Source of the DNA: Bryum argenteum | Taxonomy: Eukaryota; Streptophyta; Bryopsida; Bryales; Bryaceae | Direction of reading: 5' to 3' | Assembly: GCA_037043015.1 (NCBI GenBank) | Contig: CM073322.1 | Location: 8,939,601 to 9,003,600, forward strand | Length of the DNA stretch: 64,000 bases | Part shown: positions 6,606-64,000 of the stretch, piece after piece | Layout of the letters: every line of letters begins with the position of its first letter | Numbering within the stretch: position 1 is the stretch's first letter | Made by a program: the position numbers and the translations under genes | The notes under the pieces: generated by a model | The model's database searches: none | What the model was told of the DNA's origin: nothing | Seen by the model: the letters and a program-made list of their open reading frames with translations, nothing else

Positions 6606-6871
6606 TTAAACCCTAAAGATCCTTCATGCAAAATTGTCTGAATTATCAAAAGTGACCTTCTACTTCAAGCCTCAAAAAACAATTTATCTAGGTATAATTT
6701 AGAAAATCCAACTCCGGGATCTTGAAGGTAACTTGAGACTATACTCACGATGAAATTTGAACCATTCTTTCTTCTTCACTTGTGAGATCTTAATGCTTAA
6801 AATTGGTTAATTAATTTCTTATAGGAAACCCCAAAAAGCCATTTCCACTTCCTTGGATCTTTAGGAGTTAA
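6606..6871. mobile_element. Group Q TTAA MITE (266 bp)
   Basis: Begins TTAAACCCTAAAGATCC and ends GGATCTTTAGGAGTTAA, giving inverted termini next to TTAA on both sides. It shares its body with copies at 16799-17066 and 21956-22226 (AT-rich, with a 'cttgaaggtaacttgag'-type segment). It encodes nothing and is a non-autonomous element, most likely moved by a piggyBac-type transposase. Confidence 0.75.
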
Positions 6872-6988
6872 AAATCTCTAAAGTGTGGTAAGTGCCTAAA
6901 TAAGAATAGCCCCTATGGCTCCTCAACTCTAAACATTCACTCTACACCACATATCTCAACCATAGGAGGGTAAAAGGCCATCAAATAG

Positions 6989-7204
6989 GGGTAAGCGTTC
7001 GTAGCAGCTACCAAGGAGGATGGAGGAGGGGTAATGAGCCCCCTAATTTTTTGATGTATAGACATTAAATGCCAAGGAGTAGGCTTACAAGGGTAACTTG
7101 GGGTCGTAGACCTCAAATCTGAATTCAAAATTATCAAAAACAGCCTTGGGAGGTCCCCACGGATTCTAGGGTGCCTCCTTGGTAGCTGCTACGAACCATT
7201 GCCC
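6989..7204. mobile_element. 216-bp Mutator-like MITE, copy 1
   Basis: Inverted termini of about 30 bp share the core TTCGTAGCAGCTACCAAGG; the ends read GGGTAAGCG and CATTGCCC. It is flanked by a perfect 9-bp direct repeat ATCAAATAG (6980-6988 and 7205-7213). The second copy at 34984-35199 has the same length and a different 9-bp duplication. Nine-base duplications and long termini fit the Mutator superfamily. Non-coding. Confidence 0.85.
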
Positions 7205-7239
7205 ATCAAATAGGAACCTCCGTTGTTGGTGTGCATTCG

Positions 7240-7640
7240 GTGTGTTTTCCCGTTAAACTGAATGATAGCTCTTCTTGCAACATGGAAGAATTGACCAGAA
7301 ATGCTCATATAGGAAGGTGCTAAATAATGGCTCCATGGGAATCTGTAAGGATGTTATCAGTGCAAGCAATTTTTGTGCAGTGGGGAAAATTAGCAGAAAG
7401 ATAGAGCAGCTGGAATCAGCATTTTCGGACACTTTTACAATGAGTTATAGATTTTTGAAGTTAAAAATATAGGTGTTTCTAAAATGGTGCCCTGTGGTGA
7501 CACCCTACGATATTTGGATTGAGAACATGGTACTGTTGTTTGGGGAAACTATTATGTACCTCTGAGGGAAGATTACTATAGCCCCATTTTAGGACCTGCT
7601 CCATTTTAATCCACTCTACTGTATATAACATTTGTTGAAA
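7240..7640. repeat. Unclassified dispersed repeat X, copy 1
   Basis: Shares ordered blocks with 32160-32440 and 54500-54670: 'gcaagcaatttttgtgca', 'agaaagatagagca', 'ataggtgtttct', 'tattatgtacct'. Termini and duplications could not be defined. No coding function is evident. Confidence 0.5.
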
Positions 7641-7848
7641 CGGTCTGCACAAATAGATCCATATTTCATAATAATTACTAATTCCTGATATACTTTCAAC
7701 TATTACAGTATGGAGATAGGGAATCATTTTCTGCTGTATTTGAACGAGTCGTTCTTTTCTTCTTTAGGTTTTATTAAAAAAAATTGCAGGTATATTCAGA
7801 ACTTGGATTAAAATTCGGTTGTTGAATTGAATTTTGGTATACAACAAT

Positions 7849-8980: not shown

Positions 8981-9942
8981 TTAACCCCTTTTCGTCCTCG
9001 GGGTATTTTTAGTCAAAAAGTCATTTTTGAAAAAAAGTGTCATAGATGGAAATAAAGATGAGCTATTCAGTTCTCAACCGTACATATCTGTAATGGACTT
9101 GTTGTAGATCATGTGGACCAAAACTTGACTCTTGGGACTCTATAGATTGCAAGATCACAACGTTCTAGTAAAAAACGGAGGCTACAAAAAACTATGATTT
9201 TCACTTTGGAGTGAAAATACTATGAACATGAAATTTGCAATAAAAAAAATCACCAACTAGGAAGTTGTTCATCTTCATTTCAAGGTCTCTATTGTACCTA
9301 AATAATTCATCAAAAAAATAGCTTGGCTCAAACAGTAGCATTGCAATGGTGAAAAATGCCAAACATTATACAAAGGAAAAATAGTCCAAAATTACACCCC
9401 TTGCACTCAAATCCATGCCCTATCTTCAATACGTCTTTGATTAGGTCAAGGTTTCTACTATTATAACTAGACTGTGATTGGAATCCATCTCAAAAATTAA
9501 AGTCAAAATCTAAAAGTAGATGAAGGAGATATAGCTCCTCAAAAATCATCCATCTTTTCACTTATTTCATCCTAGAACATCATTGCAAATCCAGTACCAA
9601 AGTTATTAGGATCAAAAATCTTCCAACTATAGAGTTGTTGGGATGCAATCTAAAAATCATACTTATGTGAAGAAATCATGAAAAACTATTCTTTTTGATC
9701 TCATATAATTGGCTTGCAATTGTAAAACATGCCAAATGTTTGAAAACTCAAAAACAAAAGTTGCCTTCACTAAAATGCATGTCATTTATTCATCGTTTAC
9801 TACATGGGTCTGCATTTATAATCACACAAACTACAATTGATTTGTGACCCATGAGGATTAGTGAAGAAATTATGGCTCTTTGAAAGTTTCTGCCCTTCAT
9901 CCAAAATGTTATTTTTCAACACAAGGGACGTTTAGGTGTTAA
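8981..9942 (-). mobile_element. Group S TTAA element (962 bp)
   Basis: Begins TTAACCCCTTTTCG and ends GGGACGTTTAGGTGTTAA. The internal order of motifs matches the copies at 38115-39097 and 48290-49280, in the same orientation as the latter. The terminal hairpin is decayed and no gene is encoded. It is a relic non-autonomous TTAA transposon. Confidence 0.7.
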
Positions 9943-10428: not shown

Positions 10429-10458
10429 TACCAAAATTCATCTACTATGCGCTTACAT

Positions 10459-10727
10459 TTAACCCCTTTACTTTTCATAAAACTTGAAACGGGCTTTGGA
10501 GGTTCCCCTAGAAGAAAAACTCAACCAACTTTGACCATTATAATCTCAGAAATGAGGAAGAATGAACGATTCAAATTTAGCCTGTGAGAAGAATGTCAAG
10601 TGAACTTTGAGATCTTACGGCTGAATCTTTTAAATAATGCTTAGATTGAGATTGTTTGAGCTTAATCTAAAGGAAGGTCAAGTTTTGTAACTTAGACTAT
10701 TTTGCAACAAGGAAATTTTGGGGTGAA
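10459..10727. mobile_element. Group Q TTAA MITE, decayed
   Basis: Starts TTAACCCCTTTAC and ends TTTTGGGGTGAA (eroded TTAA). The middle contains 'caaccaactttgaccatta' and 'taatgcttagattgag' in the order seen at 16799-17066. Confidence 0.65.
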
Positions 10728-11267
10728 GCTTATGATTCCTTCTTTTTCTTTTCTCTTCTTAAAAATCCATCTTCCGGCAAGATACATTTTTCAATGCTTT
10801 CCTCCTAAAACAACATGGTTGGTTCCATGGGTTTCCACGTCAAGTCTTGCATCAGAAATTTTTAGGGTTGTTTTTCCTTCAAACAACAAACAACCCACAA
10901 AAGCAATGAGTTAACCCCTAAGAATCCAGGAAAGCCGAATTGGCTTTTTGCTGTTTTGGGCACCTTCGTTTAAGGGGTTAAAATGCAATTTTGACTTCGA
11001 ATTTTTTATTGAAGGTGGGGAATTAGGTGAAGTATGTGTGGTAAAAATTGCAACCCTGGATTTCTTTTTTTGTGCCTTGTAGGCCATTTTTTTGTTTTCG
11101 AATCCAAAACGGGCACATCGGGCGGCACTCTAAGCCAATGAGAAGAGGGGGCGCAGAGTGGGCAACGTGGACGGTCATTTGGGAAGATTGGGCTGGGGCA
11201 GGGGGTTTGGAATGGGGTTTAGAAGTCACCCATGATTATTGAGAATCCAGTGACAGTAGTGGGCCAA

Positions 11268-11407
11268 CTACCTTGTAATTAGCAATTCCGTTACTTTCAT
11301 TGCACAATAATCAATCAAACGTTCAAATTTTCTTGAGCTACCTCCAAATTAGCAATTCCGTTACTCTAATTACACCATAATTCATCAAACGTTCAAATTT
11401 TCTTGAG
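11268..11407. repeat. 70-bp direct repeat, two copies
   Basis: Units 11268-11337 and 11338-11407 share 'ttagcaattccgttact' and 'atcaaacgttcaaattttct' at a 70-bp period. They lie between the left transposon end and the first accessory frame, where a promoter or transposase-binding repeats would be expected. Function is inference. Confidence 0.8.
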
Positions 11408-11463
11408 AGTTGCAAATTGAAACTTTGAATTCAGACATCCATACATCTTGCATATTTCTCATC

Positions 11464-12526
11464 ATGGCAGACATACACTCACTTTGCGAGATCACATTAG
11501 ACACTTTCGTTGAAGAATTTGAGCATGAGATTGTCAAAGAGCATGAAATTGCACTGTCTGAATGCAAGAGCGAAGTTCCTGTATGCATGCGATTGAGTGA
11601 GGGTCCAGCGACTGAGTGCAGTGAAGAGAGCACAATTCGAGTGCATGAACTTGGCCAATTCGATCTAGTGGATGGGGTGAGAACGAACCACAAAGGATTT
11701 TGCAACGAATTGGGGGCAAGTGATCTACCGGATGCTAGCAGCGGTGTAGATGCTGCAGGTGACGGCGGTGGGAACACCCAAACGGCAGTGACGACCGGGA
11801 CAGGGCAACGACCTTCGGCCTCGGAGGTGGAAGCTTGTACTGGGAAGCGGCTGCGAGTTGAAGGCGCGTCGGAGCTACCGTCAAGATCAAAGGGTCCTTC
11901 GGCGTGGCAGCCACCTTCGGCGTGGCAGCCACCTTCGGCGTGGCAGCCACCTTCCGCGGCGCAGCCACCTTCAACGGCGCAGCTGCCTTCGGCGTCACAG
12001 GGTCCTTCGGCAGTCGGGAGCGGGGAGACTGAACCTGGTCGGGGGGGAGGCCAAGCAACGTCGGCGACAGGCTCAAAGCCTGGTACTCCACCGTCGGGAC
12101 TCCCAGTCCAGCGACATCGATACCGCAGGGAGGTCGGAGGCTCCAAAGCGACAGAGAGTCGGCAAGGGGGGCGAGCCGCAGAGCTGCGCCATCAAGGAGG
12201 GCTTACTCACAGCAGCACATGAACTAGAAGTTTGGGCAGCCAAGCACAATCTGCGACAACACCAAACCCAAGAGCTCGTGCACTTGCTAGATCCAATCTA
12301 CTTGCGTAGTCTTCCTGTAAGGCGTAAAAGTAGAGCATGGCCAAAGGAACCTATAGCATGTAATTACAGGCACCACTACTACAGACAAGTAGCACATCTC
12401 CTAGGTTGGGTAGAAAAAAAAGACTTTGGGGAAGAGTTCACTAGGATTGTTAGAACTGTGTGGCAAGACAATCAAGATGGGGAGACGAAGATCTTCCAAA
12501 CGATCAAAAGAGGTAGACAAGTGTGA
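11464..12526 (+). pseudogene. Accessory ORF(s) upstream of the piggyBac transposase
   Basis: Two overlapping plus-strand frames. The first starts at the ATG at 11464 (acidic N-terminus MADIHSLCEITLDTFVEEF) and runs to 12222. The second is open from 11858 to 12526, ending with a basic/aromatic segment (about 100 residues, including LEVWAAKHNLRQ and YRHHYYRQVAHLLGW). They overlap through an 18-bp tandem repeat (11896-12003) where all frames stay open, so a frameshift, an intron or ribosomal slippage could join the acidic N-terminus to the basic C-terminus. I do not recognise a domain; the DNA-binding-like composition suggests an element-encoded accessory protein or the transposase N-terminus. 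A CTTTTTATCTATGCAG acceptor-like sequence just before the transposase ATG leaves splicing possible, but the GT at 12513 would not keep frame. Confidence 0.4.
11896..12003 (+). repeat. 18-bp coding tandem repeat x6
   Basis: Unit CCTTCGGCGTGGCAGCCA: three exact copies, then three diverged ones. In the first frame it encodes PSAWQP repeats, in the second RRGSHL. A multiple-of-three period preserves frame and suggests selection on coding, or slippage in a tolerant linker. Confidence 0.85.
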
Positions 12527-12603
12527 TGTTCTCATTCAATGGAATCAAAACTCATGACTAATGAGAAACTTTGCACAAAATCTCACGCCTACTCTTTTTA
12601 TCT

Positions 12604-15513
12604 ATGCAGATGGAGTGGGATGGGATCCCAATTAGAAGAAGCAACAGACTAATCCGAGAACCTTCACCAAGTTCTCCACCTCCCACGACGCCGGATTCCA
12701 CACCACCTGAAGAAACACAAACACACATAGATTGGGATGACTTTCCAGATCTAGGTCCGGCGATACTAACAATTCCATTGCCGGATACCGAATGCGAATT
12801 CAACCCTGAGTATCTCGAATCTCAAGAACTATTGCAAGCACACACAAGTAGTGATAATAATGATGGAGAGAGTGAAGATTCTGATTCTCACCGCCACGAT
12901 GGTGGAGGTCTTGAAGCACTGCTTTGGCCACCAGAGCTCCTGCTACATTCACAAACCTACGGAATGAAGCAACACAAGAGGCGTGGTGGTGATCAAGCTG
13001 CTACAATGGAGTTGGCAGAGAGGCAACGAGGTGCTAGACCATCCAGGGAAGAGTTCAATGACATCGGCGACTTTGCGATGGAGCTGCATGCGGCGCATGG
13101 GGCCGATGCAGGGGGTGCGAGGCAGCCAGCCGAGCCCCGCCATCTGGGCAGGGAGACGGCCGTTGGGCTGCCCCCGCTAGGCGCCACCCAGGCCAGCCAG
13201 GCTGCCCCCGCCAGGTCGGCCGGCTTGGCAAGGCAGGGGGTCCCCGCCAGCCAGGCTGCGCCCGGGGTTCCAGCCAACCAGGCTGCCCCCCCATTTCGGC
13301 CGGGAGGCGCCAGTTGCCCCCGCCAGCTCGGCGGGAGGCGAGCCAGTGCCCCCGCCATTTCTCGGCCGGGGGAGGCGAGCCAGCTGCCCCCACCCATTTC
13401 GGTCGGGAGGCGAGCCAGGCCGCCCCCGACTCGGCCCGGCCGGCAGTGCAGCGGCCTTCCCGCAGCGGCCTTCGCCGGGCAAGCGGCCTTCGCCGGGCAG
13501 GCGAGCTGCGGTGTCCAAGGGGCCAACGGGGCCCGGGAGGCTCGTTGGGCCGGGGACGGCCACCCTATCCACATCGCTATTTGGGGTGATGTCGCCCCAT
13601 GCCACGTAGGCCATGGCTCGGGTTTCGTAGCTGATCCAGAGATGGGAGGGGGAGCGACTACAGCAAGCTTCCACCCACAGCCACAGACTACTTCTACTAC
13701 TCCAGGTACGTCCCTAAACCTTGGGCCAGTGTGGGGTGCATTAGAAATGAATGAGAATGGTTTTGATGATGGAGAAAATAATGATGAAAGAAACGAGACT
13801 GTTGGTAATGGTGAAAGAGGAAATGAAAGTGACACTTTTCCTAACATAGAGAGTGAAAATGATAGTGATGGAGACAATGAGAATCTTGGATCAATTCATG
13901 AACAAAATGGCCTAAAATGGGAGTTTAGGGATGAAACTTGGGGAAACACCAACTTTGCTTACAACCCACACCCTAACCCATTTAGTGGACCTAGAAGAGG
14001 TCCTACAAGGAACTACCGCTCTTTGCCTTCTTTCCAGGACTTGTTCAATCTATTTTGGATTGTGGAGATGTTGCAAAGAATTGTTGATGAGACAAACCGA
14101 TATGCCAATTGTGTAGTTGATGAGCATGGAAACATTAGAGGTGGTCGGTATTGGACTAATGTAACTATCCTTGAGCTTCAAGCCTTCATGGCTTTAGCTC
14201 TCTACATGGGCTTGAAGCCACAGCCTAATTATTACACATATTGGATGGAGGACAAATTGTACCATTGTCCTATTATTTCTGGAATTTGTACACGACAGAG
14301 ATTCCAGGAATTGAGGAGGTGTCTTCACCTCACCAATGTGGATGGAATTACTAGAGGTGATGTGGGCTATGATAAAATAGGCCAAACACGATGGCTAGTC
14401 AATGCTGTTCGAGATCGTTGTAAGCTTGCGTGGTATCTTGGTAAACATGTGACTGTGGATGAGATGATGATACGGTACAAAGGTACCTATTCTCCCATCC
14501 GACAGTACATGCCCAAGAAACCACAGAAGTGGGGCTTGAAAGTCTGGTGTCTTGCATGTTCAGTTTCCAAGTATGTTTGGAATTTTGAGATTTACTGTGG
14601 GAAGGAAGATGTTGTTGTTCCTCCACTAGTCCGCCCAGATGGAGATGCTAGGCTTGCCAACAATGTTGTCATTAGACTACTTGATGGACTTTGGAACATG
14701 TGGCATGTTGTGACTATGGATAACTTTTTTTCTAGCATAGGCTTGTTCACTTCTCTTCTTTCTAGAGGTGTCTATGCCACTGGTACTGTTCGGGCAAATC
14801 GTGTGGGACTTCCAGGTTTTTCGAGGAACCTAGCAGCTTTCAAGAACGTGGTTCAGGGCACTATTGTGTGGAAGATGCATTTGAGCAGGACAATTTCTTG
14901 TGTCATGTGGAAGGACAAGAAACCTGTCATGCTCATTTCTACACATAGCAACCCTATTCAGGCACCATGTGAGAGAGTTGTTACGGTTCCTCGGCGCAAC
15001 GCCTCGATCCGCGAGCAGGTGCAGACTTCACCAATGCTATTGGAGTATACTACTCACATGCGTGGCGTTGACGTAGCAGACCAACTACGGGCCTCATACA
15101 GTTGCCAGGTACGATCGCACAAATGGTGGCACATGATTTTCTTTTTTCTTTTAGATGTTTCTGTTGTCAACATGTATATCATTTACTTGGACTGTTGTGC
15201 AAATTACAACCTCCATCGAAAGGTATCAATCCCTCCCATGACACACCTGCAATTCAAGAAAGGTTTGTGTGAGGCATTGTTACGGGAGTGGCCTATGAGA
15301 ACCACTGAACCTACTGACATTCTACCACAGCCACGGCGACCTATAATTTGTACTCCATCTTATAGCAAGTTACGTCGTAAATGCGTGGTTTGTAAAGTTC
15401 GTTCTCCTCATCATTATTGCTATAAGTGCGGCAACAAGTGGATGTGCCTTGAAACGGGATGCTATGAGAGGTGGCATACCACGATTGCGCAACAACGGCC
15501 ACGAAATCATTAG
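12604..15513 (+). CDS. piggyBac-type transposase (DDE_Tnp_1_7 family)
   Basis: About 969 residues from the ATG at 12604; the frame is open further upstream without another ATG. The N-terminal third is acidic/Pro-rich, with a GC-rich Ala/Pro/Gly insert (13060-13640). The piggyBac core runs from about residue 475. The three catalytic aspartates are recognisable: D619 in TVDEMMIRYKG, D706 in VTMDNFFSSIG and D823 in MRGVDVADQLR. A C-terminal Cys/His-rich domain starts at C927 (CVVCKVRSPHHYCYKCG), as in piggyBac enzymes, where it binds terminal DNA. Family members cut at TTAA and excise without a footprint. Length exceeds insect piggyBac (about 594 aa) because of the N-terminal extension. All key residues are present and no stop interrupts the frame, so it could be functional or recently so. 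Confidence 0.85.
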   Translation: MQMEWDGIPIRRSNRLIREPSPSSPPPTTPDSTPPEETQTHIDWDDFPDLGPAILTIPLPDTECEFNPEYLESQELLQAHTSSDNNDGESEDSDSHRHDGGGLEALLWPPELLLHSQTYGMKQHKRRGGDQAATMELAERQRGARPSREEFNDIGDFAMELHAAHGADAGGARQPAEPRHLGRETAVGLPPLGATQASQAAPARSAGLARQGVPASQAAPGVPANQAAPPFRPGGASCPRQLGGRRASAPAISRPGEASQLPPPISVGRRARPPPTRPGRQCSGLPAAAFAGQAAFAGQASCGVQGANGAREARWAGDGHPIHIAIWGDVAPCHVGHGSGFVADPEMGGGATTASFHPQPQTTSTTPGTSLNLGPVWGALEMNENGFDDGENNDERNETVGNGERGNESDTFPNIESENDSDGDNENLGSIHEQNGLKWEFRDETWGNTNFAYNPHPNPFSGPRRGPTRNYRSLPSFQDLFNLFWIVEMLQRIVDETNRYANCVVDEHGNIRGGRYWTNVTILELQAFMALALYMGLKPQPNYYTYWMEDKLYHCPIISGICTRQRFQELRRCLHLTNVDGITRGDVGYDKIGQTRWLVNAVRDRCKLAWYLGKHVTVDEMMIRYKGTYSPIRQYMPKKPQKWGLKVWCLACSVSKYVWNFEIYCGKEDVVVPPLVRPDGDARLANNVVIRLLDGLWNMWHVVTMDNFFSSIGLFTSLLSRGVYATGTVRANRVGLPGFSRNLAAFKNVVQGTIVWKMHLSRTISCVMWKDKKPVMLISTHSNPIQAPCERVVTVPRRNASIREQVQTSPMLLEYTTHMRGVDVADQLRASYSCQVRSHKWWHMIFFFLLDVSVVNMYIIYLDCCANYNLHRKVSIPPMTHLQFKKGLCEALLREWPMRTTEPTDILPQPRRPIICTPSYSKLRRKCVVCKVRSPHHYCYKCGNKWMCLETGCYERWHTTIAQQRPRNH
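13060..13640 (+). other. GC-rich insert inside the transposase frame
   Basis: About 580 bp of GC-rich DNA in a gene otherwise near 45% GC. It encodes low-complexity Ala/Pro/Gly/Arg sequence with recurring QAAP/GRRA-type blocks and stays in frame. All other frames are also open here, so the peptide may be incidental. It could be a captured host segment or a slippage expansion; another GC-rich block lies at 15760-15990. Confidence 0.6.
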
Positions 15514-15739
15514 TTTCAGGTATGTGATTCACACAAACACAATCTTTATTTCTTTCAAAATTTTCGTTGGACAATGATTTCTAAAACTGTGATGTACATC
15601 AAAGTATGTGATCTAGAAATATAACCCCAACTTGGCCAAGAAGTTATGCTAATATAGAAGAATGAGAAGAAAAAAAAATCATAAAAGTGAGCAAAAAAAA
15701 AAAAAAAAAAAAAAACATTGGACTAAGGTCCCAGTTCAT

Positions 15740-16010
15740 TTCTTGCCACAGTCTAACGCCAGGGCCTGTTCGGCAAAGCAGCTGCTTGGTCGGGGGGGGG
15801 TTCGATGGGCTGCAGGGTACCACAGGGGCCGCGCTCGGGCTTCAGGGCGGACACCCCAGCGGTGTAGGGGAGGTATCGCCGGCGCAAGGGGGCCTCCACG
15901 GGCGGAGAGCTGACCGGGTAACGGGGAGGTATTGCCGATGCAGGGGGTCGGCAGGGTCTGAAAATCGGCCGCAGGGCTGCGCCATCGAGGAGGGACTTCT
16001 CCATTGAGCC
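15740..16010 (+). pseudogene. GC-rich relic similar to the accessory ORF end
   Basis: Downstream of the transposase stop, 'cgcagggctgcgccatcg' followed by 'aggagggacttct' echoes 12178-12210 ('cgcagagctgcgccatca' then 'aggagggcttac'). The peptide CAIEEGLL here matches CAIKEGLL there. No start codon or complete gene is present. It is probably a duplicated piece of the accessory region. Confidence 0.35.
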
Positions 16011-16798
16011 ACCTTGATGGTATGGACCCACCTGACATGCATGGGGGGGCTCATAAATTGTTCTCTCCTTGACCAGCCAAAATTGGCCCCATTTGTACAG
16101 CATGTCAGTGCAATAAATGTCAATTTGAGGCATCTTCGTATCTTTGTATCACGGCTCACTGGGGTTGCAAGGGAACCCAACATTGCCAAGCTGCCCAGCT
16201 CTTTTTAGAGCACATTTCACTAGTTTTACCCATCAATTTTGAGAAGTAATTGAGATTTTGGGATTTTTCCAAAATAATTTCGCACAAAAATCACATTTGA
16301 GTCATAGATCAACTTCACCGTTGGGATTCTAAAAAAACAATAAAAAAATGGTGCTATGAGAAAATATGTGAAATGGGAGATTTTGGTACCGTTTAGACCT
16401 TCACTGCCTAAAGAATTTAGATGAAGGTCCTAAAAGCATGGGCCGCCAAAATAATTTTGCATGGAGGTGACCAACTTAGTTCCCTACATGGAAAAAAATG
16501 TCCGCAAAATGTTTGGGAAAACAAACATCAAGTCCCCCTTTGCACCATTTACCCTATGCCGTTCGGGCAATGCCCAAAAAAACTTTTGCTGCGACTTTGA
16601 ACGTTATAATCTCACGGATGATAAACATCCAACGGTTGAAAATTTCATGAGTTATTCTACAGAGGGTAAAGTTCAAGATCCTACGGTTGGATGTCTAAAA
16701 AAAGAAACAAAACTGGTCGGACCCGCCATTCCCACAAAGTGGTCAAAAATGGCAGTTTCTGCATTTGGAGCTTCCAAAAACGGCTGGATTTTTAGGGG

Positions 16799-17066
16799 TT
16801 AACCCCTAAAGGCCCAAGAAAGCCGAAATGGCTTTTTGGGGTTTCCGCAGGAAAAAAAGTCAGCCAACTTTGACCATTATAATCTCAAAATTGGAAAAAA
16901 AATAACGGTTCAAATTTGACATATGAGTATAGGGTCAAGTTCACTTCAAGATCCTACGGTTGGATCTTCTAATTAATGCTTAGATTGAGTTTTTTCGGGC
17001 CTGAAGTAGAAGAGGGTCCTTTGTGATAATTTAGACAATTTTGTATCAAGGATCTTTAGGGGTTAA
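16799..17066. mobile_element. Group Q TTAA MITE (268 bp), best copy
   Basis: TTAACCCCTAAAGGCCC at the left and GGATCTTTAGGGGTTAA at the right. It abuts the 5.9-kb element, sharing one TTAA. The left subterminal 'aagaaagccgaaatggcttttt' resembles the left end of that element, so the same transposase may recognise it. Confidence 0.85.
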
Positions 17067-18336: not shown

Positions 18337-18782
18337 ATAAGCCCCTAAAGTCGAATGCCCCAAAATTGCTCAAAAATACCCTCTTTCAATGCAAGATGAA
18401 AAATTTCAACTTTTGACGTAATCTCAAGTATATGAGTCTAAGACCTTTTACCTAACTTGTCCATGTATGTGTGTACCAAAACTTACTTTCAAATTCCTTA
18501 CCAATTGTGAGACCGTAATATTCAAAGTTGAAAATGAAGTTTATTACCCTTGTTGCAAAATGGGTTCGAAGTTTTTTGTGAGCCCAATAAATCAATTTTG
18601 AGAGTAAGTTTGAATTCTGGCTCTTCAAATTCTTGTTCCTTAGTGAGTTAGGAACATGTTTGTGTGATTTTACCTTCATGTGACCTATAAAATCCAAAGA
18701 AATGCTCGAATTTTCACATGGAGGTATGTTGAAATTCAACTTCAAAGGCCCATTTTGGTCTCTTTTCAACGTTAGGGGTTAA
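18337..18782. mobile_element. Group R TTAA element (about 446 bp)
   Basis: The left end is an eroded taaGCCCCTAAAGTCGAA and the right end TTCAACGTTAGGGGTTAA. The body matches 52216-53064 and 62602-63438 (for example 'tttcaatgcaagatgaaa', 'cacatggaggtatgttgaaa'). Compared with those it lacks about 400 bp on one side. Confidence 0.7.
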
Positions 18783-19106: not shown

Positions 19107-20295
19107 TTAACCCCTAACTTTCCTTAAAACCCAAAACGGGTTTTAGTTGTTTTGGGCAGCGTAAGTGAAGTAGTAAAAATTGATATTTTTTGCTAATTTT
19201 TTTATCGGAGGTGGGCAATTTCATGATGAAGATGTTGTAAAAATCTTGGTGTAAAATTATCATTTTCACGACTTCTATGGCATTATTTTGTTTTGGAGTC
19301 GAGAAGGGGCAGGACGGGCGGGGCTCTAAGCCAATGGGGGTTGCTGTGAGAAATAGGGCAGTCGTGCGGTTTGAGAGAAAAAATATGACATGGGCAGGGG
19401 GTTAAGAAGGGGGTTATAGCTAACCCATGATCTCCAAATGGGGGTTGCTCACATGCCATGCTAAATGCTCCCCCCCCCTAGCACTAATCTCAATGTAATT
19501 TCAATGTATTCCGCATAGGTGGCAGTATTCACGGCTGAATTTTACTTACACATGCCATAAATGTAAGTCAACTTTGACCAATTTAGGCCATTGCATTTAT
19601 AACAACAAGATCTAATTTGATATTTTTATGAATGCATGTAAAGGGTGTAGTGGGGCTAATAAGGGGTCCAGCTTTGTAAGGCTGCCCCTTTCTTATTTTT
19701 CTAATTTTCTTACTGTAAATCTTTAAAAAGTCATAACAAATTGAGATTGTAAAATTTTTGAACAAAAGTTGTGCCCAAAATTCACAATCCTGTGAGTGCA
19801 CCCTCTCATCGTTCACTTTTTCAAAATTCAAAACTCTATAGATACCACCAAGTTTTTTCATATTTCAACTCTAATGGGAGATTTTAGACCCTAAGTTGGA
19901 AAACATTTTTAGTGAAGGTTCTAAAAGTGGAATCTGTTTCCAAGTTTTTGCATGAGCATGAAGAACCCATAAACCTACATGAAAAAAAATGTGACCAAAA
20001 TGTTTGAGGTAATCATCATCAATTCGCCCTTTGCACCATTGACATTTTGTCTCTCGGGCAATACCCAAAAAAACATTTGTCGTAACTTTGAACGTTATGA
20101 TCTCACAAATGCCAAACATCCAACGGTTGAAATTTAGATCAGTTTTTCCAATTAGGGTTTTGTACAAGATCTTATGGTTAGAAGTCAAAATAAAGTAAAA
20201 AAATCTGACTCGTACCGCCAGGAGTACATAGTGGTAGAAAATGGCAGTTTTGAGGTTTCAAGGTTCCAAAAACAACAAGGAAATTTAGGGGTTAA
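19107..20295 (+). mobile_element. Group P: internally deleted relative of the 5.9-kb piggyBac element
   Basis: TTAACCCCTAACTTTCC to GGAAATTTAGGGGTTAA. The left part shares 'ctctaagccaatg' and 'gggcagggggtt' blocks with 10911-11240, and the right part shares 'catccaacggttga', 'gggcaat(a/g)cccaaaaaaac' and the terminus with 16375-16802. No transposase is left. This is the expected structure of a non-autonomous derivative. Confidence 0.8.
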
Positions 20296-21955: not shown

Positions 21956-22226
21956 TTAACCCCAAAAGATCCTTGGTACAAAATTGTCTAAATTGTCAAA
22001 AAGAACCTTCTTGTACTTCAGACCCAAAGAAACTCAATCTAAGCATTCAGAAGAAGACCCAACCGTAGGATCTTGAAGTTAACTTGACCCTTTACTCGAA
22101 TGTCAATTTTGAACCGTTAATGTTTCTCCAATGTTGAGATTATAATGGTCAAAGTTGGCTGAATTTTTTTCCTGCGGATATCCGAAAAAGCCATAATTTC
22201 GACTTTCTTGGATCTTTAGGGGTTAG
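21956..22226. mobile_element. Group Q TTAA MITE (271 bp)
   Basis: TTAACCCCAAAAGATCC to GGATCTTTAGGGGTTAG; the right TTAA is mutated to TTAG. The body is an inverted match to 16799-17066. Confidence 0.75.
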
Positions 22227-23907: not shown

Positions 23908-24218
23908 TGTTAGAAAGCAAGCAAGCAAGCTTAAGAAATAAGCAAGAGGGAGAGGTGAAAGCAAAGAAGTGAGGAGGGCAAGGCTCTCCTCTAGTATATA
24001 TATGTAAAAGAGAGAGTAGTTATCTCTAGTGATAACTTGATGATAACACAACGACCACACCTTTATTATCCAATAACTACAACTAAACTGCCCGTTTACT
24101 ATCCGTGGAAGTTAATTCCAAGGTAATTACTAGGAGTTAATTCCTAGGGGTAGAAAGTTACTAGGAGTTAATTCCTAGGGGTAGAAAGTTCCTGGGTCGC
24201 CTAGGTTGTATCTCAACA
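23908..24218 (-). repeat. Copia 3' LTR
   Basis: 311 bp, TGTTAGAAAG...TCTCAACA on the plus strand. By eye it has the same bases as the other LTR. It contains a 31-bp imperfect tandem duplication (tactaggagttaattcctag) and, on the sense strand, a TATATATA box before a CT-rich stretch that could be the transcription start area. Confidence 0.93.
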
Positions 24219-24231
24219 CTCCTCCTCGACC
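24219..24231 (-). other. Polypurine tract
   Basis: Sense-strand GGTCGAGGAGGAG directly precedes the 3' LTR, as required for plus-strand DNA priming. Confidence 0.7.
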
Positions 24232-24345
24232 AAGGAACGCCTTATTAAAAACTCTTCTTGAAGTAAAACCCAATGGGAAACCTCCAAGATAGAGAAAAGA
24301 GTGCGCCTTTTCGAAGGTCTTGGAGGGCGCGTTCGGCTTTATGTA

Positions 24346-25020: not shown

Positions 25021-25251
25021 TTCCTCCTCCTCCTCCTCGCACGGGCGGTATGGATCCTCGCCGATCTTCTTTGCTGCGCCCGATCATTGGTCTTGAGGTC
25101 GGATTTGCATCGGCCATGCCCAAGTTACGAAGAAGCTTGCGGGTGTAGGATTCTTGGTGGAGCGGGGATGCTACCATCCTAAGTGTTGTATCTGCGCAGG
25201 CCTAAACAATATGTGGTCTTGCTTTAACAATTTGATCTCAAACTCGGCTTT

Positions 25252-26268: not shown

Positions 26269-26439
26269 AATCGAGGAAAATCAAGTTTTGGAAAAATCGT
26301 CTCTATAAATCTGCAATTTTCAAAACGGGCCTTGTGTAGGGTGCCATTCTTTCGGGTCTATGTACTGATGATCTTTGGGAGAATCGAAGCCTCATATAAT
26401 CCTTCTAGGCGATGGGCACTAATGGTGCGGATTCGAGGT

Positions 26440-32912: not shown

Positions 32913-32960
<48 letters not shown>

Positions 32961-49813: not shown

Positions 49814-51213
49814 CCCTTAAACGCCCACGATGTCGAAAAACGACATTTTGGATGTACATCCAGAAACTTTGAAGAGCCATATCTTCTTCATCCGAGGTCC
49901 GTTTTGGATGAAATCACTTGGGTTAGGTTCCAAATCAAGTCTAGTTTGTGTTGTAGAATTTGCAAGCCCATACAATAAAGTATGAATTAATGGAATGCAC
50001 TTTAGTGAAGACAGCTCTTGTTTTTGGGATTCCAAGCATGGGGCATGTATTACCATTGCAAGCCAATTATGTGAAATTGAAAATAGTTTTTCATGATTTT
50101 TTTTTTCAAGGTCATGATCTTAACCCTTAAGCGCCCACATTGTCGTTTTTCGACATTATGGATGTGAGGCTCCGTCTTTGGTGCACAACCCCGCTTTCAT
50201 CCCATTGATTTTTCATCCGCCGTTTTTTTTGCTGAACTCCTCGGTGGGTTTACTTTACTCCCTCCTTGGATAAATAGTAAAAACCTTGATCCTCAATTTG
50301 TGAGAGTGGACGAAAGAGATTTTTCATGAAAGTTTTGGTGGTGTGATCTTCACCCCTTTTTTACATGGATCTTGAAATCCATACCTCCAAATGGCATGCA
50401 ACTTGGCGGTCATACTAATTGCCATGCTCCAAAGAAGATCGTACGGTTGGAATTTCCATTTTCATCTTTTATTTGTTTTTACGCAGTTTTAAAAAAATCA
50501 GCATTATTACCAATTGTTAGGAGCTTTACCCCCCCCCCCTTGGGCGTTTAGGGGTTAAGGTGATTCTTAACAACTTTGTAGTGAGAAGTTTTTTGATCCA
50601 AATTATTTTGCTATTGGATTTGCAATGATGTTTTGTCAACATAAAAAGTGAGAAAATGGATGATATTTGATCTCATCCACCGTTGGATTTCAACTTAATT
50701 TTTTGTGATGGCCTCCAATTAGAGTCTAGTCTAAGTGGTAGAAACCTTAACAAGATCAAAGATGTTTTGAAGATAAGGCATGAAATTGAATGCAAAGGGT
50801 CTAGTTTTGGACTATTTTCCCTTTGTAAAATGTTCGGTAGTTTTTACCATTGCATGGCTTTTATTTGAGCCAAGAAACTTTTTTGATGAATTTTTGTTGG
50901 GTAAAGGACTTATTAAGATGAAGGTGAACATCTTTCTAGTTGGTGACTTTTTCATTGCAATAGGTATATTGGTAGCATTTCCACCTGAAAGTGAAAATGA
51001 TGAAATTTTGCAGTTTGTTTTTAGTATTAATACGTTATGATCTCTCGATCTACAAGGCCTCATGACTCAAATTTTGGTCCACATGATCTTCGATAAGTCT
51101 ATTGCAAGTTTGTACGGTTGAGATCTTAATAGCTTTTCTTGATTTTCATCTATGACGATTTCTATGGAGATGTGCTTTTTTGCTAAAAATAGGCTTGGGC
51201 GTTTAGGGGTTAA
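49810..51213 (+). mobile_element. Group S TTAA element carrying a nested element
   Basis: TTAACCCTTAAACGCCCA to GGGCGTTTAGGGGTTAA, with the hairpin TGTCGAAAAACGACA near 49830. Interrupted at 50120-50558; when that is removed the sequence follows 38115-39097 through the join. Confidence 0.8.
50120..50558 (+). mobile_element. 439-bp TTAA element, nested
   Basis: TTAACCCTTAAGCGCCCA to TGGGCGTTTAGGGGTTAA. The subterminal hairpin is TGTCGTTTTTCGACA: the same stem as other group S copies but with the loop as its complement. A C run is near 50529-50539. The body differs from typical group S. Confidence 0.8.
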
Positions 51214-52215
51214 GAATTAGAACAATACAAACTCTACACAAACACTTCAATGAGACTGAGTGGCAAAACTACCGCTTGGATGAGGATTGAAGATTCTTCA
51301 CCAAAATCTTCAATTTTCCATCAATCGTACTTTTTTTAATCTTCAATTTTGGAGGATTACGATCTTGCAATCGATGAGGGTTCTTGACTCAAAATTTAGT
51401 TCACATGATTGACAAAAAGTGTTTCACAAGATGGTATGGTTATGACTTGAATAATTTACCTCCATTTTCACCTATGACACTTTTTGTTTCAAATGATTTT
51501 TTGGCTAAAGATAAGTTGGGACATATAGGGTTGAAATTTCTTTGCATTTTTATAAACATGGATATGCGCAATTCTTAATTGCTCCATATTTGACTACTTC
51601 ACAACACCCTAAAAGTGTCCTCAATTAAGGAAATGTCCTTTGCCCATTCCACTAAGAATTATGGCTCTTATGCAAGTCCGTGCAACTACAAACAAACAAT
51701 ACAAAAAGAACATGCAAAATATGACTCGTAATACTAAATAAGGACACCAAAGTCCGAGCTTAAACTATGCATGGTCTTCTAACACTGCCAACACGACACC
51801 AAAAGCACAAAACTGTAAGTGCACCATTTTCCAAACCGGACTTTTTCCATGCCTTCCGATGGAAGCCAAAACACATAGTCCACCATTGTGAACTCCAACC
51901 ACGCATGCATATAAATTTTCTCGTGTGTAAGGTGCAAGCACTTAAAAGCGGTCACCCCCCTAAAAGCGTGCATGGCACTTACTTTCTTGCTATAATGAAG
52001 ATTTGAGCACCCTACAATCACTCGTAATGTACCTCATACGGTAGGGTGTCGAGTTATAGGTTAATCTATATTGATCACTTCTGAATTTCTAGTTATTATT
52101 GTGAGTGTTTACAGATACCCTAAAAATAAGGAAACTTTGTCTTTTTTATTTGCTAATGAGTGAAAATCGGAAGGCACTCATTCCACCACTCCAAGTATAG
52201 TGAATTGCTTAACAA
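51214..52215. other. Group S scraps; no gene
   Basis: 51350-51540 resembles a group S end ('gatcttgcaatcgatgag', 'gtatggttatgacttgaa', 'cacctatgacactttt'). 51767-52021 gives frames on both strands without a family. Nothing more is supported. Confidence 0.4.
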
Positions 52216-52723
52216 TTAAAGTCGAAAGCCCCTAAGACTGCTGAAACTTCTCAAAACTGCCTTCTTTCAATGCAAGATGAAAGCTTTCAATTTTCAACAC
52301 AATTTCCAGCATGTAACTGTAAGATCTTATACCTAACTTGTCCATGTACGTGTGTACCAAATCTTAGTTTCAAATTCCTTACCAATTGTGAGATCATAAC
52401 ATTCAAAGTTGGAAAAGAAGGTTGTTTCACTTGTTGCAAAATGAGTTCGAAGTTTTTTTGTGAGCCAGAAAACCAACTTTCAAAGTAAATTTAAACTTTG
52501 GCTCTTCAAATTCTTCTTCCTCACTGAGTTAGGAAAACATTTGTGTAATTTTTACCTTCATGCAACCTATAAAACCTAAAGAAATGCTTGAATTTTCACA
52601 TGGAAGTACCCTGAAATTCAACTTCAAAGGCCCCTCTTTGATAATAAAAATGGCATGTAAAGAATAAATTGGATGAAAGATCCAAACGGTGAGATCATGC
52701 CTTAAAATCTTATTTCTAAGTAC

Positions 52724-52762
<39 letters not shown>

Positions 52763-53064
52763 TGCAAAAAAGTACAATCTCAATTCTTGGTAAATCTTTG
52801 AAGTTTCTTTGATCTTATTTATTTTTGGCAGATTTTGAGAATAAACTAGTATATACCGCAATTTTGGGCAAATTTCAAATAGTGTTTCCAAACTTCGACC
52901 GTAAAAAATCTCCTAAAGTATGAGGAATTTCGAAGCATGAAATGACTTTTCGGAAAGGTATGGTAAAACCCTACAACTTACTTGCAATGGGTTTCAATTT
53001 CATACAAGCTAAAAAAGGGGGTGGAGCGGACCCCGAAACGTCCCGTCTCGACATTAGGGGTCAA
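52216..53064. mobile_element. Group R TTAA element (849 bp)
   Basis: TTAAAGTCGAAAGCCCC at the left (terminus eroded) and TCTCGACATTAGGGGTCAA at the right. It matches 62602-63438 in inverse orientation along its length, including 'cctaaagtatgaggaat'. It contains a poly(A) run at about 52725-52760. Confidence 0.7.
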
Positions 53065-56433: not shown

Positions 56434-57011
56434 TTAACCCCTAACTTTCCTTGAAGCCCGAAACGGGTTTTTGCACTTTTGGGCAGCCTAGATGAAGTAG
56501 TTAAGACTAATATGTTTGCCTAAGATTTTTACTAGGTGCTCCTTATACTCCAAAGTGTATGTGGTAAAATTTGCAAAGTCAAATTCCAATTTTAAAACCT
56601 TCATGCAAAAAGGTTTAGGTTTCAAGTCGGAAAAGGGCACCTTAAAAAAGTAATTTTGTTGAATTTTTATTTGGAAATATGTTTATTACTAAATCACTAC
56701 TCAAATTTCAAAGTGATCCGAGTCAAAAAGCTTACCAATTTTAGAAGGGCAGCCTCCAAAATTTTCAAAACCAATCTTTGCAATGCCCAAAAAAACTTGG
56801 AAGACAAATTTTGGATGTTATGATCTCTCAAACAATAAACATCCAACGGTCAAATTTTGGAACAACTAGTCTTAGGGTACAAGATCTTACCGTTGCAAGT
56901 TTTTAAAAAGGAAAAACAATTTGCTCACACCCCCGAGAGTGCATAGAAGTAGATAATTGCAGTTTTGAGGTTTCAAGCTCCCAAAAAACACCAAGGAAAG
57001 TTAGGGGTTAA
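56434..57011 (+). mobile_element. Group P TTAA element (578 bp)
   Basis: TTAACCCCTAACTTTCCTTG to CAAGGAAAGTTAGGGGTTAA: 20-bp perfect inverted ends including TTAA. The left 'ttttgggcagcctagatgaagtag' type sequence and the right 'aaacatccaacggtc' match 19107-20295. Confidence 0.85.
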
Positions 57012-57268
57012 CCGAAACAGATCGAGAATGCAAAATTGATTAAATTACCATCAATAATGACCTTCTTCTTCCTTAGGATCAATATATCTCAATCTTAGCG
57101 GTGTTCAGAAGTTTCTACCGTAGGATCTTAAAGTTAACTTGAACTTCTACTTGCATAAGAAAGTTAAACCGTTGATTGCTTTTCATTTCAGAAATTATAA
57201 TGGTCAAAGTTGGTTGGATTTTTCTCTTGTGGGAACCCTTAGAATCCATTACGGGATTTAAGTTTTAA
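57008..57268. mobile_element. Group Q relic between two TTAA elements
   Basis: The sequence 'ctaccgtaggatcttaaagt' and 'attataatggtcaaagttgg' follows 21956-22226. Its left TTAA is shared with 56434-57011 and its right side is eroded next to 57265. Confidence 0.5.
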
Positions 57269-57625
57269 CCCCTCAATGGTTTGACTCATTTGTACAAATT
57301 ATCATAAATGGAAACAAAGGTAAGTCATTCAAATCTCAACCGTACAATCTTGTAGTAGACATATTTCTGATTTCTCATGATTGTCTTACAATGGTAAATC
57401 ATGTTCCATGGTTGAAAACTCAATAACAAGAGCTGCCTTCACCAAAATTCATGTCATTTATTCATACTTCATCACATGGGTCTACAATTTCTACCACACA
57501 AACTAGAGTTGATTTGGAACCCAACCCAAGTGATTTCATCTAAAACAAGCTCCGGATGGCACTTCAAACGTTCTACCCTTCATCCACAATGTGGTTTTTC
57601 AACATTCGGCACGTCTAGGGGTCAA
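57265..57625 (-). mobile_element. Group S element with internal deletion (361 bp)
   Basis: TTAACCCCTCAATGGTTTG to GGCACGTCTAGGGGTCAA. Both ends match 48290-49280, but about 630 bp of the middle is missing, joining near 57362. Confidence 0.7.
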
Positions 57626-60574: not shown

Positions 60575-60880
60575 TAACACCAACCCCCGGCCTTAAGAGT
60601 TGAGTTTCTCAGTATTTTTTTAATTTTTTTTTTTTCTCGGGGTGCATGTATCACAGTATTTAATCCTTCCGATTTTTTTATTTTATTTTTTTTATTTTAT
60701 TTTACGAGGTTATCAATATTGGTTGATTGGCAAACACCAACCCCCGGACTTACGGGTTTAGTTTCTCGGGTGTTTTTTTTTTTTTTTTTTTTTTTTTTTT
60801 GGGGGGTGGTGCATGTATCACATTATTTGATCCCTCCAAAATGATTTTTTTACGAGGTAATCAATGTTGGTTGATGGGCA
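60575..60880. repeat. Tandem duplication, about 157-bp units with long T tracts
   Basis: Unit 1 (about 60575-60731) and unit 2 (about 60732-60880) share, in order, 'aacaccaacccccgg', 'gtttctc', a T-rich tract, 'gcatgtatcaca', 'acgaggt(t/a)atcaat' and 'ttggttgat(t/g)ggca'. The T tract has grown differently in each (about 31 pure T in unit 2). Confidence 0.85.
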
Positions 60881-61599
60881 TGGTCGAAATGATCCGAAAT
60901 TGCTTGATTGGTCGTAACTATCAGGTATGTGAATGGATTGACGTTGGTTGATATCATCCAATCGTTGACACTCAAACCGTACTCGATCCAAATATTCTAG
61001 AACCTTCCCTACCCATGTACGTTTCAACTTCAGGAAGTGATGGGCATTCACTCCGCACTTTAAATCGGTTTTATTGCATTGTGCGTGCGGAGGAAGAGCT
61101 TTCCGGGAGCTTTAGCTCTTGTGATCGTCAAGAATTTAAATAAGAGAACAAATTTGAAGTTTTGGGAGATGAGTTAGATAGAAAATCCTACATTTTAGAC
61201 ACAAGTGTGAAATGTAAAATCTTAGCTAGCAAGATTTAATATGCACTAAAAAAAATTGAAATTACATTCTTTTCACTTAAAGTAGGAATGCTACTAACAT
61301 ACCCATTTGCAATCTAAAAATATTAACAACTAGATTGTTTTTCACCTTCATCTTAATGACACTCTTGTACCACTATAAATCACTGAATAACATTCTTAGC
61401 TCAAATACTAGTCTTACAATGGTGAAAATTGCACAAAATTCTACAAAGGAAATACAGTCCAAAGGAATGGAACAAATTCTTATATTGTTTGGGTACATTC
61501 AATAGCACGATAGTAAATAAGCTAGCTACTATTAATTTCAGGTGTTAAATGTGCATCGTTTCCCTTTTATACCATCACAATGCTAGGACTCCAATTTAG
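60881..61599. other. Group S scrap; no gene
   Basis: 61270-61500 resembles the middle of group S ('tgaataacattcttagctcaa', 'caatggtgaaaattgcac'). The rest is unassigned. Confidence 0.4.
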
Positions 61600-61822
61600 T
61601 CAACCCCTAAAGATCCTTGGTGGAAAAGTGCCCAAATTACAATAAATGACCTCCTTCTACTTCAAGACCTTAAAATCTCAATCTAACCACTACGTAGAAG
61701 ATCCAACCGTAGAATTTTATAATAAACTTAACACACTAGTTACATGCCAAATTTGAACCGTTGATTCTTCTCCATTTGTGAGATTATAACAGTCAAAGTT
61801 GGCTAATTTTGTTCCATCTCTT
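61600..61822. mobile_element. Group Q TTAA element, truncated
   Basis: TCAACCCCTAAAGATCCTTG followed by group Q body to 'gtcaaagttggctaattttg'; the distal terminus is missing. Confidence 0.65.
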
Positions 61823-62159
61823 CTTTCCCCGGGTTTTTGAGTTCAATGCCCCGGTTCCCAACCACAGTGATTTCTTGAGTTAATATTAATTTTTTGTGAT
61901 TTTTGTATCAATTTCTGGAGGTCCATTTTCTCTGTATGAATGCAGAGATACTGTAGACTTGACGCCTGAATCTAACAAATGGTACGCTCACGACAAACAT
62001 GACCTTTTGAGATGACATGGCACCAACCCCCCTTGATCAATAATTCGGGCACCTTTGCAGCACATAAGATCATATATAATTGATGTGTATGTGTAGTTTT
62101 CCGCAGCTGGCAAAACCGAGTTATGGCTCCATCCATCCCCACGACTACGGTAGCAAACG

Positions 62160-64000
62160 AATAAGATCACGGGCTTTAGGATGCAACTTGAGCCATGGAA
62201 ATGCCTCTCACCTATGACGTTGAAGTTGACGCTCGATCGATCATTGTGGAGTCATGAAAATAATCCCAACTATTCATATTTCACCGCCCCATGACATTGT
62301 TATCCGGATGTGTGGACTATGCACCTACCTCACTACCAACCAAATCAAACAAAAATAAAAATATAACTTGGTATGTTCTTTGTCCATAGTTGCATATTTT
62401 ATATCGGCTTCCTTATCGCTTAGCGATCCGATGAGGTTACGATCTTCAAGATGCATCTAGAGCTACGGAAATCCTCCGATCGGACATAATGGAATTATAG
62501 GAGTTGAAGCTCATTATGGAATCACAGAAACTAAATGTTCATATTTCACCGCCCATGGCGTTTGTTGTCCGGATTGGATGATCAAATTTTGAACTATCTA
62601 CTTGACCCCTGTTGTTGAAAAGAGCCCTGAACGGGACGTTTGAGGTCTAGTCAACCTTGTATTTACTATATTTAGCTTGTATGAAGTTGGAACCTTTTGC
62701 AGGCTGCAAATTTTTCCATACCTTTCCCTGAAGTCATTCCATGTTTCAAATATCCTCATACTTTAGGAGATATTCATGTTCAATGTTTGGAAACACTATT
62801 TGAAATTTGCACAAAACTGCCCAAACTGCAAATATGCTTATTTACTCTCAAAATCTGCCCAAAATCAATTATATCACTTCAAAAGTTCACCAAGAATTGA
62901 GATTTTAGTTTTTTTTCACGTTTTGTTTCTTTACATGTACATATGGTTTTAAGGCATGATGCACCATTCGGATCTTTCATCCATACATTCTGCACATGCC
63001 ATTTTTATTGTCAAAGATTAGACTTTGTATTTAAATTTCAGCATACCTCCATGTGAAAAATTGAGCAATTCTTTAGGTTTTACAGGTCGCATGAGGTTAA
63101 AAATTGCATAGACCTGTTCCTAACTTACTTTGGAACAAAAATGTGAAGAGCCTCAATTCAACTTTACTCTTAAAATTGGTTATTTGGGTTTACAGAAAAA
63201 CTTCAAACCCATTTTGCAACGAGGAGAAAAAACTTCATTCTCAACTTTGAATGTAAGAATCTTACAATTGGTGAGGAGCTTGAAGCCAAGATTTGGTACA
63301 CATGTACCTGGACAAGTTACGTATAAGATCTTACAGTCACATACTTGAGATAATGTCAAAAGTTAAAGATCTTGCATTGGGAGAGGGTGATTTTGAGGCC
63401 TTTTGGCAATTTGGGGACCTTTCGACTTTAGGATTTAATGCACTACCAATTCTAACAAAAATAAGACCTTGGCATGTTCTTTGTCACTTCATGATTAGCT
63501 ATCCCATTTTTGCATATTTTTATATTGACTTCCTCATGAAACAAGTATGACTAAAGGACTACACATGACTTGAAAGCCAATGAGATCGCGAGCTTCAAGT
63601 TGCAACTTGAGCCATGATGAAAATCCACGCCGACGACATGGAAGTTGGAAGCTCATCATAAAATCCAAGTTTCCATACATTCACCCCCCATGGCATTGTT
63701 ATCCACATTCGATGGAACTATCCACTTCACGCACTAGCCACCAAAACAAAAGTAAAAACAAAAAATTGAACTTTGCATATTCTTCTTTGTCGATCGATCG
63801 TGCGTGTGAGTATCACATTGTTGCATATTATAATATGGGCTTCCTTATAGAACAAGTATCGCCCAAGCGACCGCACACGACTTGCGGGAGCCAATGAGCT
63901 TCAAGATGCACCGAGAGCCACGGAAATTCTCCCCGACAACATTCAAGTTGACGCACGTTATGGAGTCAAAACTCAAAACAGTCCAAATTTCACCACACAT
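62160..64000 (+). repeat. Degenerate satellite-like array, units of roughly 270 bp
   Basis: Repeated blocks in order: 'gggctt(t/c)aggatgcaac', 'gagccatggaaat', 'gttgaagttga', 'tcatatttcaccgcccatg', 'ttgttatccgga', 'tgttctttgt', 'ttgcatatt', 'ggcttcctta'. They are seen at about 62165, 62445, 63585 and 63880, continuing to the window edge and interrupted at 62602-63438. Coding potential is nil. It could be a small satellite or a relic of a tandem repeat inside a larger element. Confidence 0.65.
62602..63438. mobile_element. Group R TTAA element (837 bp) inside the tandem array
   Basis: TTGACCCCTGTTGTTGAAAAG to TTTCGACTTTAGGATTTAA. It matches 52216-53064 inverted. Sequence on both sides belongs to the satellite-like array, so it inserted into it. 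Confidence 0.7.

Follow-up and report, generated by a model that had tools for sequence, protein, structure and literature searches.

A stretch of 64,000 bases from the moss Bryum argenteum (assembly GCA_037043015.1, contig CM073322.1, forward-strand positions 8,939,601 to 9,003,600), here called the window and numbered from its first base, harbors a crowded set of mobile elements flanked by TTAA, most of them with terminal inverted repeats (TIRs) of the type CCCYTAA. One of these, PB, occupies 5,892 bp of the plus strand (10911-16802) and is a putative autonomous piggyBac element; most of the others fall into groups termed P, Q, R and S. In what follows, the A end of an element is the one that bears a short dyad centered on base pair 25, and the B end is the one close to a module common to the groups. 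The elements belong to the piggyBac superfamily, as evidenced by the TTAA target, the TIRs, a DDE_Tnp_1_7 transposase and its aligned aspartates. It is probable that the locus represents a cluster in which one putative autonomous copy is accompanied by many short miniature inverted-repeat transposable elements (MITEs) of one old lineage, carrying a predicted binding site for the cysteine-rich domain (CRD) of transposases that differed between groups.

PB is bounded by TTAA on both sides, the right one being common to the next element, and its ends are 13/14 identical and align to P copies. The proposal that this 5.9-kb element carries a piggyBac transposase, made in an initial annotation of the window, is confirmed by the open reading frame (ORF) at 12565-15513 (plus strand, 982 codons from stop to stop), which matches PF13843 (DDE_Tnp_1_7) at residues 491-869 with E=1.9e-71 and has a C-terminal tail rich in Cys and His. 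Its only solved relatives at E<=0.001 are piggyBat (9c0f, E=3.5e-26), the nearest, and piggyBac of Trichoplusia ni (6x67, E=1.6e-22). The stretches tvDe, tmDn and gvDvaDq align with lDe, mDn and gvDraDq of piggyBat, and the aspartates within them are presumably the catalytic positions; a second aligned stretch is weak (0.3 bits), and the last 57 residues taken alone recover three Pfam zinc-finger families below their cut-offs (E=0.036-0.048). A tblastn search of the 64-kb window with residues 431-982 revealed no second transposase, the next match having E=1.6, while among viral contigs searches for relatives yielded a single locus that matched over approximately 20 residues, and among bacterial and archaeal genome contigs two pattern matches, neither of which is a relative. 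Upstream of the transposase, PB holds two overlapping ORFs, at 11407-12222 and 11792-12526, with no Pfam match, which may represent an additional gene or 5' exons that are spliced. The idea that 10911-10981 is a 71-bp element in its own right was rejected; P copies align through this pair of TTAAs.

The same annotation had counted about twenty TTAA-flanked elements with CCC(C/T)TAA ends, and self-comparison together with alignments yields 21 that have two assignable ends, several of them degraded. On the plus strand TTAACCCYTAA occurs 14 times and TTARGGGTTAA 12 times, for a total of 26 exact ends; 200 windows simulated with an order-3 Markov model averaged 0.045 such ends, and none had more than 1. 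TTAAs lying 60-2000 bp apart whose inner 14-mers match at 11 or more of 14 positions form 12 pairs, whereas the simulations averaged 0.11 and never exceeded 2; the predicted excess over simulated sequence, checked here within the 64-kb window, is thus far above chance. The TIRs of the 26 exact ends fit the superfamily trait of short TIRs that start with CC[C/T], and in S, Q and R several ends carry mutations, such as TTGA, TTCA or TTAG in place of TTAA.

Group P comprises 19107-20295 (plus strand, 1,189 bp, lacking the transposase, with both ends homologous to PB), 32557-33171 (minus, 615 bp) and 56434-57011 (plus, 578 bp, its right TTAA common to a Q element), to which can be added a P-like element at 33613-33881 (plus, 269 bp) that has a P-like B end and a 14/14 TIR match and lies, as comparison of its flanks with R copies indicates, within an R remnant at approximately 33303-34520. 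Five Q elements have two ends and measure 261-273 bp: 6606-6871 (minus, 266 bp); 10459-10727 (plus, 269 bp, with TTCA as its right flank and a 1-bp shift of the A-end dyad); 16799-17066 (plus, 268 bp, dyad arms identical to those of PB); 21956-22228 (minus, A-end TTAA mutated, 3-bp insertion in the dyad loop); and 57008-57268 (minus, TIRs degraded, joined by single TTAAs to its P and R neighbors). Partial Q copies lie at 17546, 44294 and 61598. Complete R elements span approximately 960-990 bp, as in 8981-9942 (minus, 962 bp), 38115-39097 (plus, 983 bp) and 48290-49280 (minus, 991 bp), the last being the uninterrupted copy used for comparison; 37729-39322 and 49810-51213 (both plus) are split by nested elements, namely 38115-39097 and a 439-bp element (50120-50558, plus) whose A end has an R-type dyad, and shorter R copies are present, including 57265-57625 (minus, A-end TTAA mutated). 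Complete S elements measure approximately 840-860 bp (52209-53064, minus, and 62602-63438, plus, both with partly mutated flanks); a third, at about 18338-18782 (minus), is internally deleted relative to the first and has one intact end, at 18782, and an S fragment lies at 29582. The smallest element, of 80 bp (40635-40714, plus), has the A-end dyad CATGCC-CCTCG-GGCTTG. Copies within R, P and Q diverge by roughly 12-30%, which suggests that most of them are old, in contrast to PB, whose transposase frame is still open. In addition, the window holds a 289-bp TTAA-flanked element (31264-31552) with perfect 14-bp inverted ends, GGTAGAGTGTCCTA, unlike those of the CCCYTAA group; it is not among the flanks with the bp-25 dyad.

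Targeting of TTAA, another element of the initial annotation, is borne out by three inserts found inside copies of the R family, the sites compared being paralogous and not orthologous. These are 38115-39097 within 37729-39322, 50120-50558 within 49810-51213, and 33613-33881 within the remnant at approximately 33303-34520; once the insert and one TTAA are taken out, the two sides of each host can be aligned through the junction to insert-free R copies, with a single TTAA at that point. Two different elements (in 33303-34520 and in 49810-51213) occupy the same TTAAGG position of two R copies, a reused target site, while the host 37729-39322 was entered inside a near-palindrome, CATTTTCACTTTAAAGTGAAAATG, where the copy at 48290 reads ...CTTCAAAG... 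Elements also abut through single TTAAs, as do PB and a Q element at 16799-16802, and P, Q and R elements in a row at 57008-57011 and 57265-57268. TTAAs with ends on both sides number four (16799, 48024, 57008 and 57265), and no preference for insertion beside older elements is claimed.

Sorting of the elements into at least four groups stands, while the accompanying view that their bodies differ wholly does not: a module of approximately 115 bp near one end is common to P, Q, R and S, and the idea that the groups are unrelated was rejected. The PB copy of the module occupies 16592-16703 (plus strand) and is separated from the B end by 99 bp. A model trained on 12 B-proximal stretches (PB, three P copies, the P-like element at 33613 and seven Q copies) recovers four held-out S copies with 52.7, 33.7, 31.1 and 26.4 bits and five held-out R copies with 22.9, 18.6, 18.1, 12.9 and 12.4 bits, against 8.6 bits for the best match in 21 controls (the reversed window and 20 simulated windows). 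In 17 of the 19 copies the module is 86-101 bp from the B end, and in the other two 66 and 73 bp, although the distance in the R element at 8981 rests on a control-level match. The aligned copies have GTTATGATCTCACAAT-like and ACAAGATCNTACGGTTG-like blocks in common, and because the module is common to all four groups, these look like branches of one lineage. As had been proposed, P copies also share both ends of PB (the copy at 19107 matches at 68% over 237 bp and 76% over 326 bp, and the other P copies align with it). No match between PB and R appeared among self-comparison rows of at least 60 bp, and the diverged module is the only homology beyond the TIR that was recovered between them.

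The feature that stands out at the opposite end is an inverted repeat that pairs positions 21-26 with 32-37 (counting TTAA as 1-4), centered on position 29, or bp 25 of the element, and which occurs at one end of most elements. In PB (10911-10950, plus strand) the end consists of TTAA, 16 bp, and the dyad AAAGCC-GAATT-GGCTTT, with 6/6 Watson-Crick pairs. Mean pairing at center 29 over 16 A ends is 0.79, while the highest of 500 shuffles reaches about 0.47. Scoring was repeated without selection on all 636 TTAA flanks in the window, that is, 35 TIR-like flanks (one of which, at 10981, is internal to PB) and 601 others; at least 5/6 Watson-Crick pairs at center 29 were present in 12/35 of the former and 4/601 of the latter (Fisher P=1.6e-13). 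Among 13 elements with both ends in the set of 35, exactly one end has the dyad in 11, neither end in 2 (33613-33881 and 6606-6871), and both ends in 0. The 80-bp element at 40635-40714, which lies outside the profiled A-end set, displays it as well (5/6 pairs).

The arms of the dyad differ between groups by compensatory changes. In 15 A ends that align without gaps, with G-T counted as paired and kinship not corrected for, 92.2% of 90 cells are paired, 28 cells are changed on both sides, and the covariation score is 0.806; shuffles give 66.4%, 10.7 cells and 0.335, with 0/500 reaching the observed value on each measure, and registers slid by 1-3 columns give at most 56.7%, 8 cells and 0.271. 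This set leaves out the Q ends at 10459 (1-bp shift) and 21956 (3-bp insertion), the degraded Q57008 and R57625 ends, the 80-bp element and the S ends. Close compensated pairs include the Q copies at 16799 and 17546 (AAAGCC/GGCTTT and AAAGCG/CGCTTT), as well as PB and the P copy at 19107 (AAAGCC/GGCTTT and AAACCC/GGGTTT).

These observations lend themselves to a mechanistic proposal in which the elements would have moved by cut-and-paste into TTAA. P, Q and R have a common asymmetric plan: the A end comprises TTAA, a CCCYTAA-type TIR of 16 bp and the dyad at bp 17-33, centered on bp 25, and the B end comprises TTAA, the TIR and the module of approximately 115 bp, with its near edge at a distance of 66-101 bp. 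On its B side, S follows this plan too. If T. ni piggyBac and piggyBat are a guide, the core of the transposase would hold the TIR, and two C-terminal CRDs would bind the A-end dyad as a dimer. The A end is most likely the left end and the dyad its CRD site, since place, span and restriction to one end are those of the known systems. Because the letters of the dyad have changed while its symmetry is kept, the families were probably served by transposases of differing CRD specificity; separate enzymes for the families, binding of CRDs and any activity of the elements are what we infer from the DNA letters. The module could, as a guess, be an array that binds transposase at the right end. The letters of the T. 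ni palindrome, for their part, presumably differ from those in the window.

The parallels with characterized systems, drawn here from the available excerpts of the cited reports, are close. In T. ni piggyBac (IFP2), a CRD dimer binds bp 17-33 of one left end, where the minor groove is narrowed at about bp 25 (PMC7351741), and the TTAA target, asymmetric ends, left-end palindrome at bp 17-33 (PMC7351741) and catalytic domain (6x67) all have counterparts in the window; unlike the window B ends, which lack the bp-25 dyad, the T. ni right end has the same palindrome too (PMC11707139), and PB is more than twice the length of the T. ni element (2,472 bp, PMC10803768). The best solved match of the transposase, piggyBat of Myotis lucifugus, has a CRD that binds a palindrome of unrelated sequence, present on the left end and absent from the right (PMC11707139; also the preprint PMC13405395), so that an imperfect, left-only palindrome bound by a CRD dimer (PMC11707139) resembles the window arrangement. 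The left end of piggyBat carries three palindromes over approximately 120 bp, while window A ends have, in their first 120 bp, the main dyad (center 29) and a lower peak (center 33). Among non-autonomous elements, coral CMITEs are likewise short and TTAA-flanked, with differing TIRs, a conserved interior and nested insertion at TTAA; they differ in being approximately 100 bp long and from corals, and the excerpt available reports no palindrome compensation (PMC2872659). The human piggyBac-like elements MER75, MER85 and Looper have subterminal or inner inverted repeats containing palindromes, at both ends, or at one end only in MER75B (PMC12324416, preprint), whereas the bp-25 dyad of the window is found at one end only.

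A number of observations weigh against so simple a reading. On A ends a second, lower peak of pairing occurs at center 33 (0.61), and 15 B ends peak near 32-33 (0.53 at 32.5), each exceeding every one of 500 shuffles (maximum about 0.47); at center 33, moreover, 4/18 other TIR-like flanks pass, compared to 4/601 (P=3.3e-5), so that the B end, which lacks the bp-25 dyad, has some symmetry as well. The ends are related, and both the Fisher test and the shuffles therefore overstate independence. S A ends keep, by eye, only 3-4 dyad pairs (three ends), and at least 3 pairs are reached by 118/601 background flanks. Within the compensation analysis, which admits G-T while the scan of 636 flanks was Watson-Crick only, two of the five measures overlap the shuffles: pairs with two-sided change number 5 versus 3.5 in shuffles (35/500 reach this value), and further pair types 11 versus 9.5 (61/500). 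Two R copies score at control level for the module (8981-9942, 7.6 bits, and the remnant 33303-34520, 2.3 bits). None of the uninterrupted R copies has an intact TTAA at the three target positions, which read with at least one mismatch, e.g. TTCA, and none of those compared is thus a pristine empty target. The CRD alone matched no solved CRD, its only matches among solved chains being NKG2-D entries (best E=0.021), taken as chance, and the predicted fold, made without an alignment, is unusable (mean pLDDT 31.7). Finally, of the nine inner TIR positions, 3-5 differ from PB even in Q.

The question of which enzyme moved which group can be approached through the letters of the ends. Over the 12 arm positions of the dyad, three Q ends differ from PB at 0-3, three P ends at 2-3, and the elements at 33613 and 40635 (80 bp) at 3 each, while seven R-type ends differ at 7-11, the R dyad reading ATGTCG...CGACAT; the contrast between groups is smaller at the inner TIR positions (bp 8-16, nine positions; Q 3-5, P 5-6, R 5-8). 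At TIR bp 8-13, the two ends of one element differ by a mean of 1.4 positions, against 3.0 for ends of other elements (16 elements; 0/10,000 permutations), and within groups by 1.5 against 2.5 (15 elements; 0/10,000 permutations), a closer match between an element's own ends that would follow if both had to be recognized by the same enzyme. Enzymes of the PB type could mobilize Q, and probably P, while R more likely depends on a different transposase, absent from this window. The suggestion of the initial annotation that one enzyme moves all groups is thus not upheld as written. Between 43 and 18 columns from the end, the R copies at 38115, 8981 or 49810 are 48-57% identical to that at 48290, compared to 71-75% overall; only 22-23 bp are compared there, and faster turnover of ends than of bodies in R is not claimed.

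One way to account for these patterns, put forward tentatively and held at somewhat under even odds, is a radiation on a single chassis, in which the TIR core, the position of the dyad and the B-side module remained constant while the CRD palindrome was rewritten by paired changes, tracking or escaping transposases, such that its arms would act as an evolvable address code. A simpler scheme would have the PB transposase mobilize all groups, with only TTAACCCYTAA and a permissive core being of consequence and the dyads left to drift. The outer TIR and the B-side module common to the groups, and the finding of a single transposase in the window (residues 431-982, next match E=1.6), speak for it; drift, however, would not be expected to preserve pairing in 92.2% of cells when slid registers reach no more than 56.7%, and since seven R-type A ends are 7-11/12 arm positions away from PB, the scheme is unlikely, in particular for R. 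The dyad could also be a hairpin in RNA or single-stranded DNA, related to siRNA or to replication-linked folding, and not a protein site. MITEs often form hairpins, and arms of 6 with loops of 5 bases could form a stem, but the occurrence of the dyad at one end only, and at bp 25, the position known for CRD binding, makes this explanation quite improbable. Least credible, at a very low likelihood, is that another TTAA-targeting superfamily produced R or S and that the likeness of TIRs reflects convergence. Sola3 targets TTAA, and the element at 31264-31552 with its quite different GGTAGAGTGTCCTA ends indicates that TTAA-flanked elements of another kind are present; most S and R copies, nevertheless, have the module found in P and Q, at a similar distance from their B ends, the R dyad has the same position as in the transposase element, and the only transposase found in the window is of the piggyBac type.

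In sum, the window holds a verified member of the known piggyBac superfamily, whose collection of ends is unusually informative. Piggybac-like elements have been stated to occur in plants (PMC8086355), 1,230 PiggyBac repeats have been tabulated for the Ceratopteris genome (PMC6890710), two reviews list PiggyBac among plant superfamilies (PMC10004981, PMC10794571), and the insect element has been used as a plant tool (PMC10905368); a match concerning moss (PMC10619864) was discarded, as it contains no piggyBac but only the word "piggybacking". Among the matches listed from the open-licence literature there is no detailed account of a native plant piggyBac family, and their available excerpts do not describe compensatory variation of a bp-25 palindrome within one genome. 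New here are the one-end bp-25 dyad with compensatory arms, the module that links P, Q, R and S, and the split between PB-like and R-type arms. How piggyBac enzymes distinguish their own ends from those of relatives is an open question, the solved T. ni and piggyBat complexes using unrelated palindromes (PMC11707139, in the excerpt available). A single lineage with many ends, in which the palindrome keeps its position while its letters vary in compensating pairs, could provide a ready series for mapping CRD specificity, with bearing on cross-mobilization of MITEs and on orthogonal piggyBac tools; if the address-code proposal is true, palindrome arms decide which enzyme moves which parasite. 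For plants, whose literature, in the excerpts found, mostly only lists piggyBac, the locus would add a rich native system.

The remainder of the window includes features of other kinds. Rfam and tRNA scans of it were empty. At 23908-29534 lies a Copia-like retrotransposon whose two 311-bp long terminal repeats are 100% identical, and which is therefore probably recent; its coding region is split into several ORFs, and RVT_2 was found only below the cut-off. A 625-codon ORF on the minus strand (2184-4058) has no Pfam match and appears by eye to resemble plant MAKR/BKI1 (membrane-associated kinase regulator) proteins. Also on the minus strand, 44900-45235 matches the Arf small-GTPase family (PF00025, E=1.3e-8) and is likely a host gene exon or fragment.

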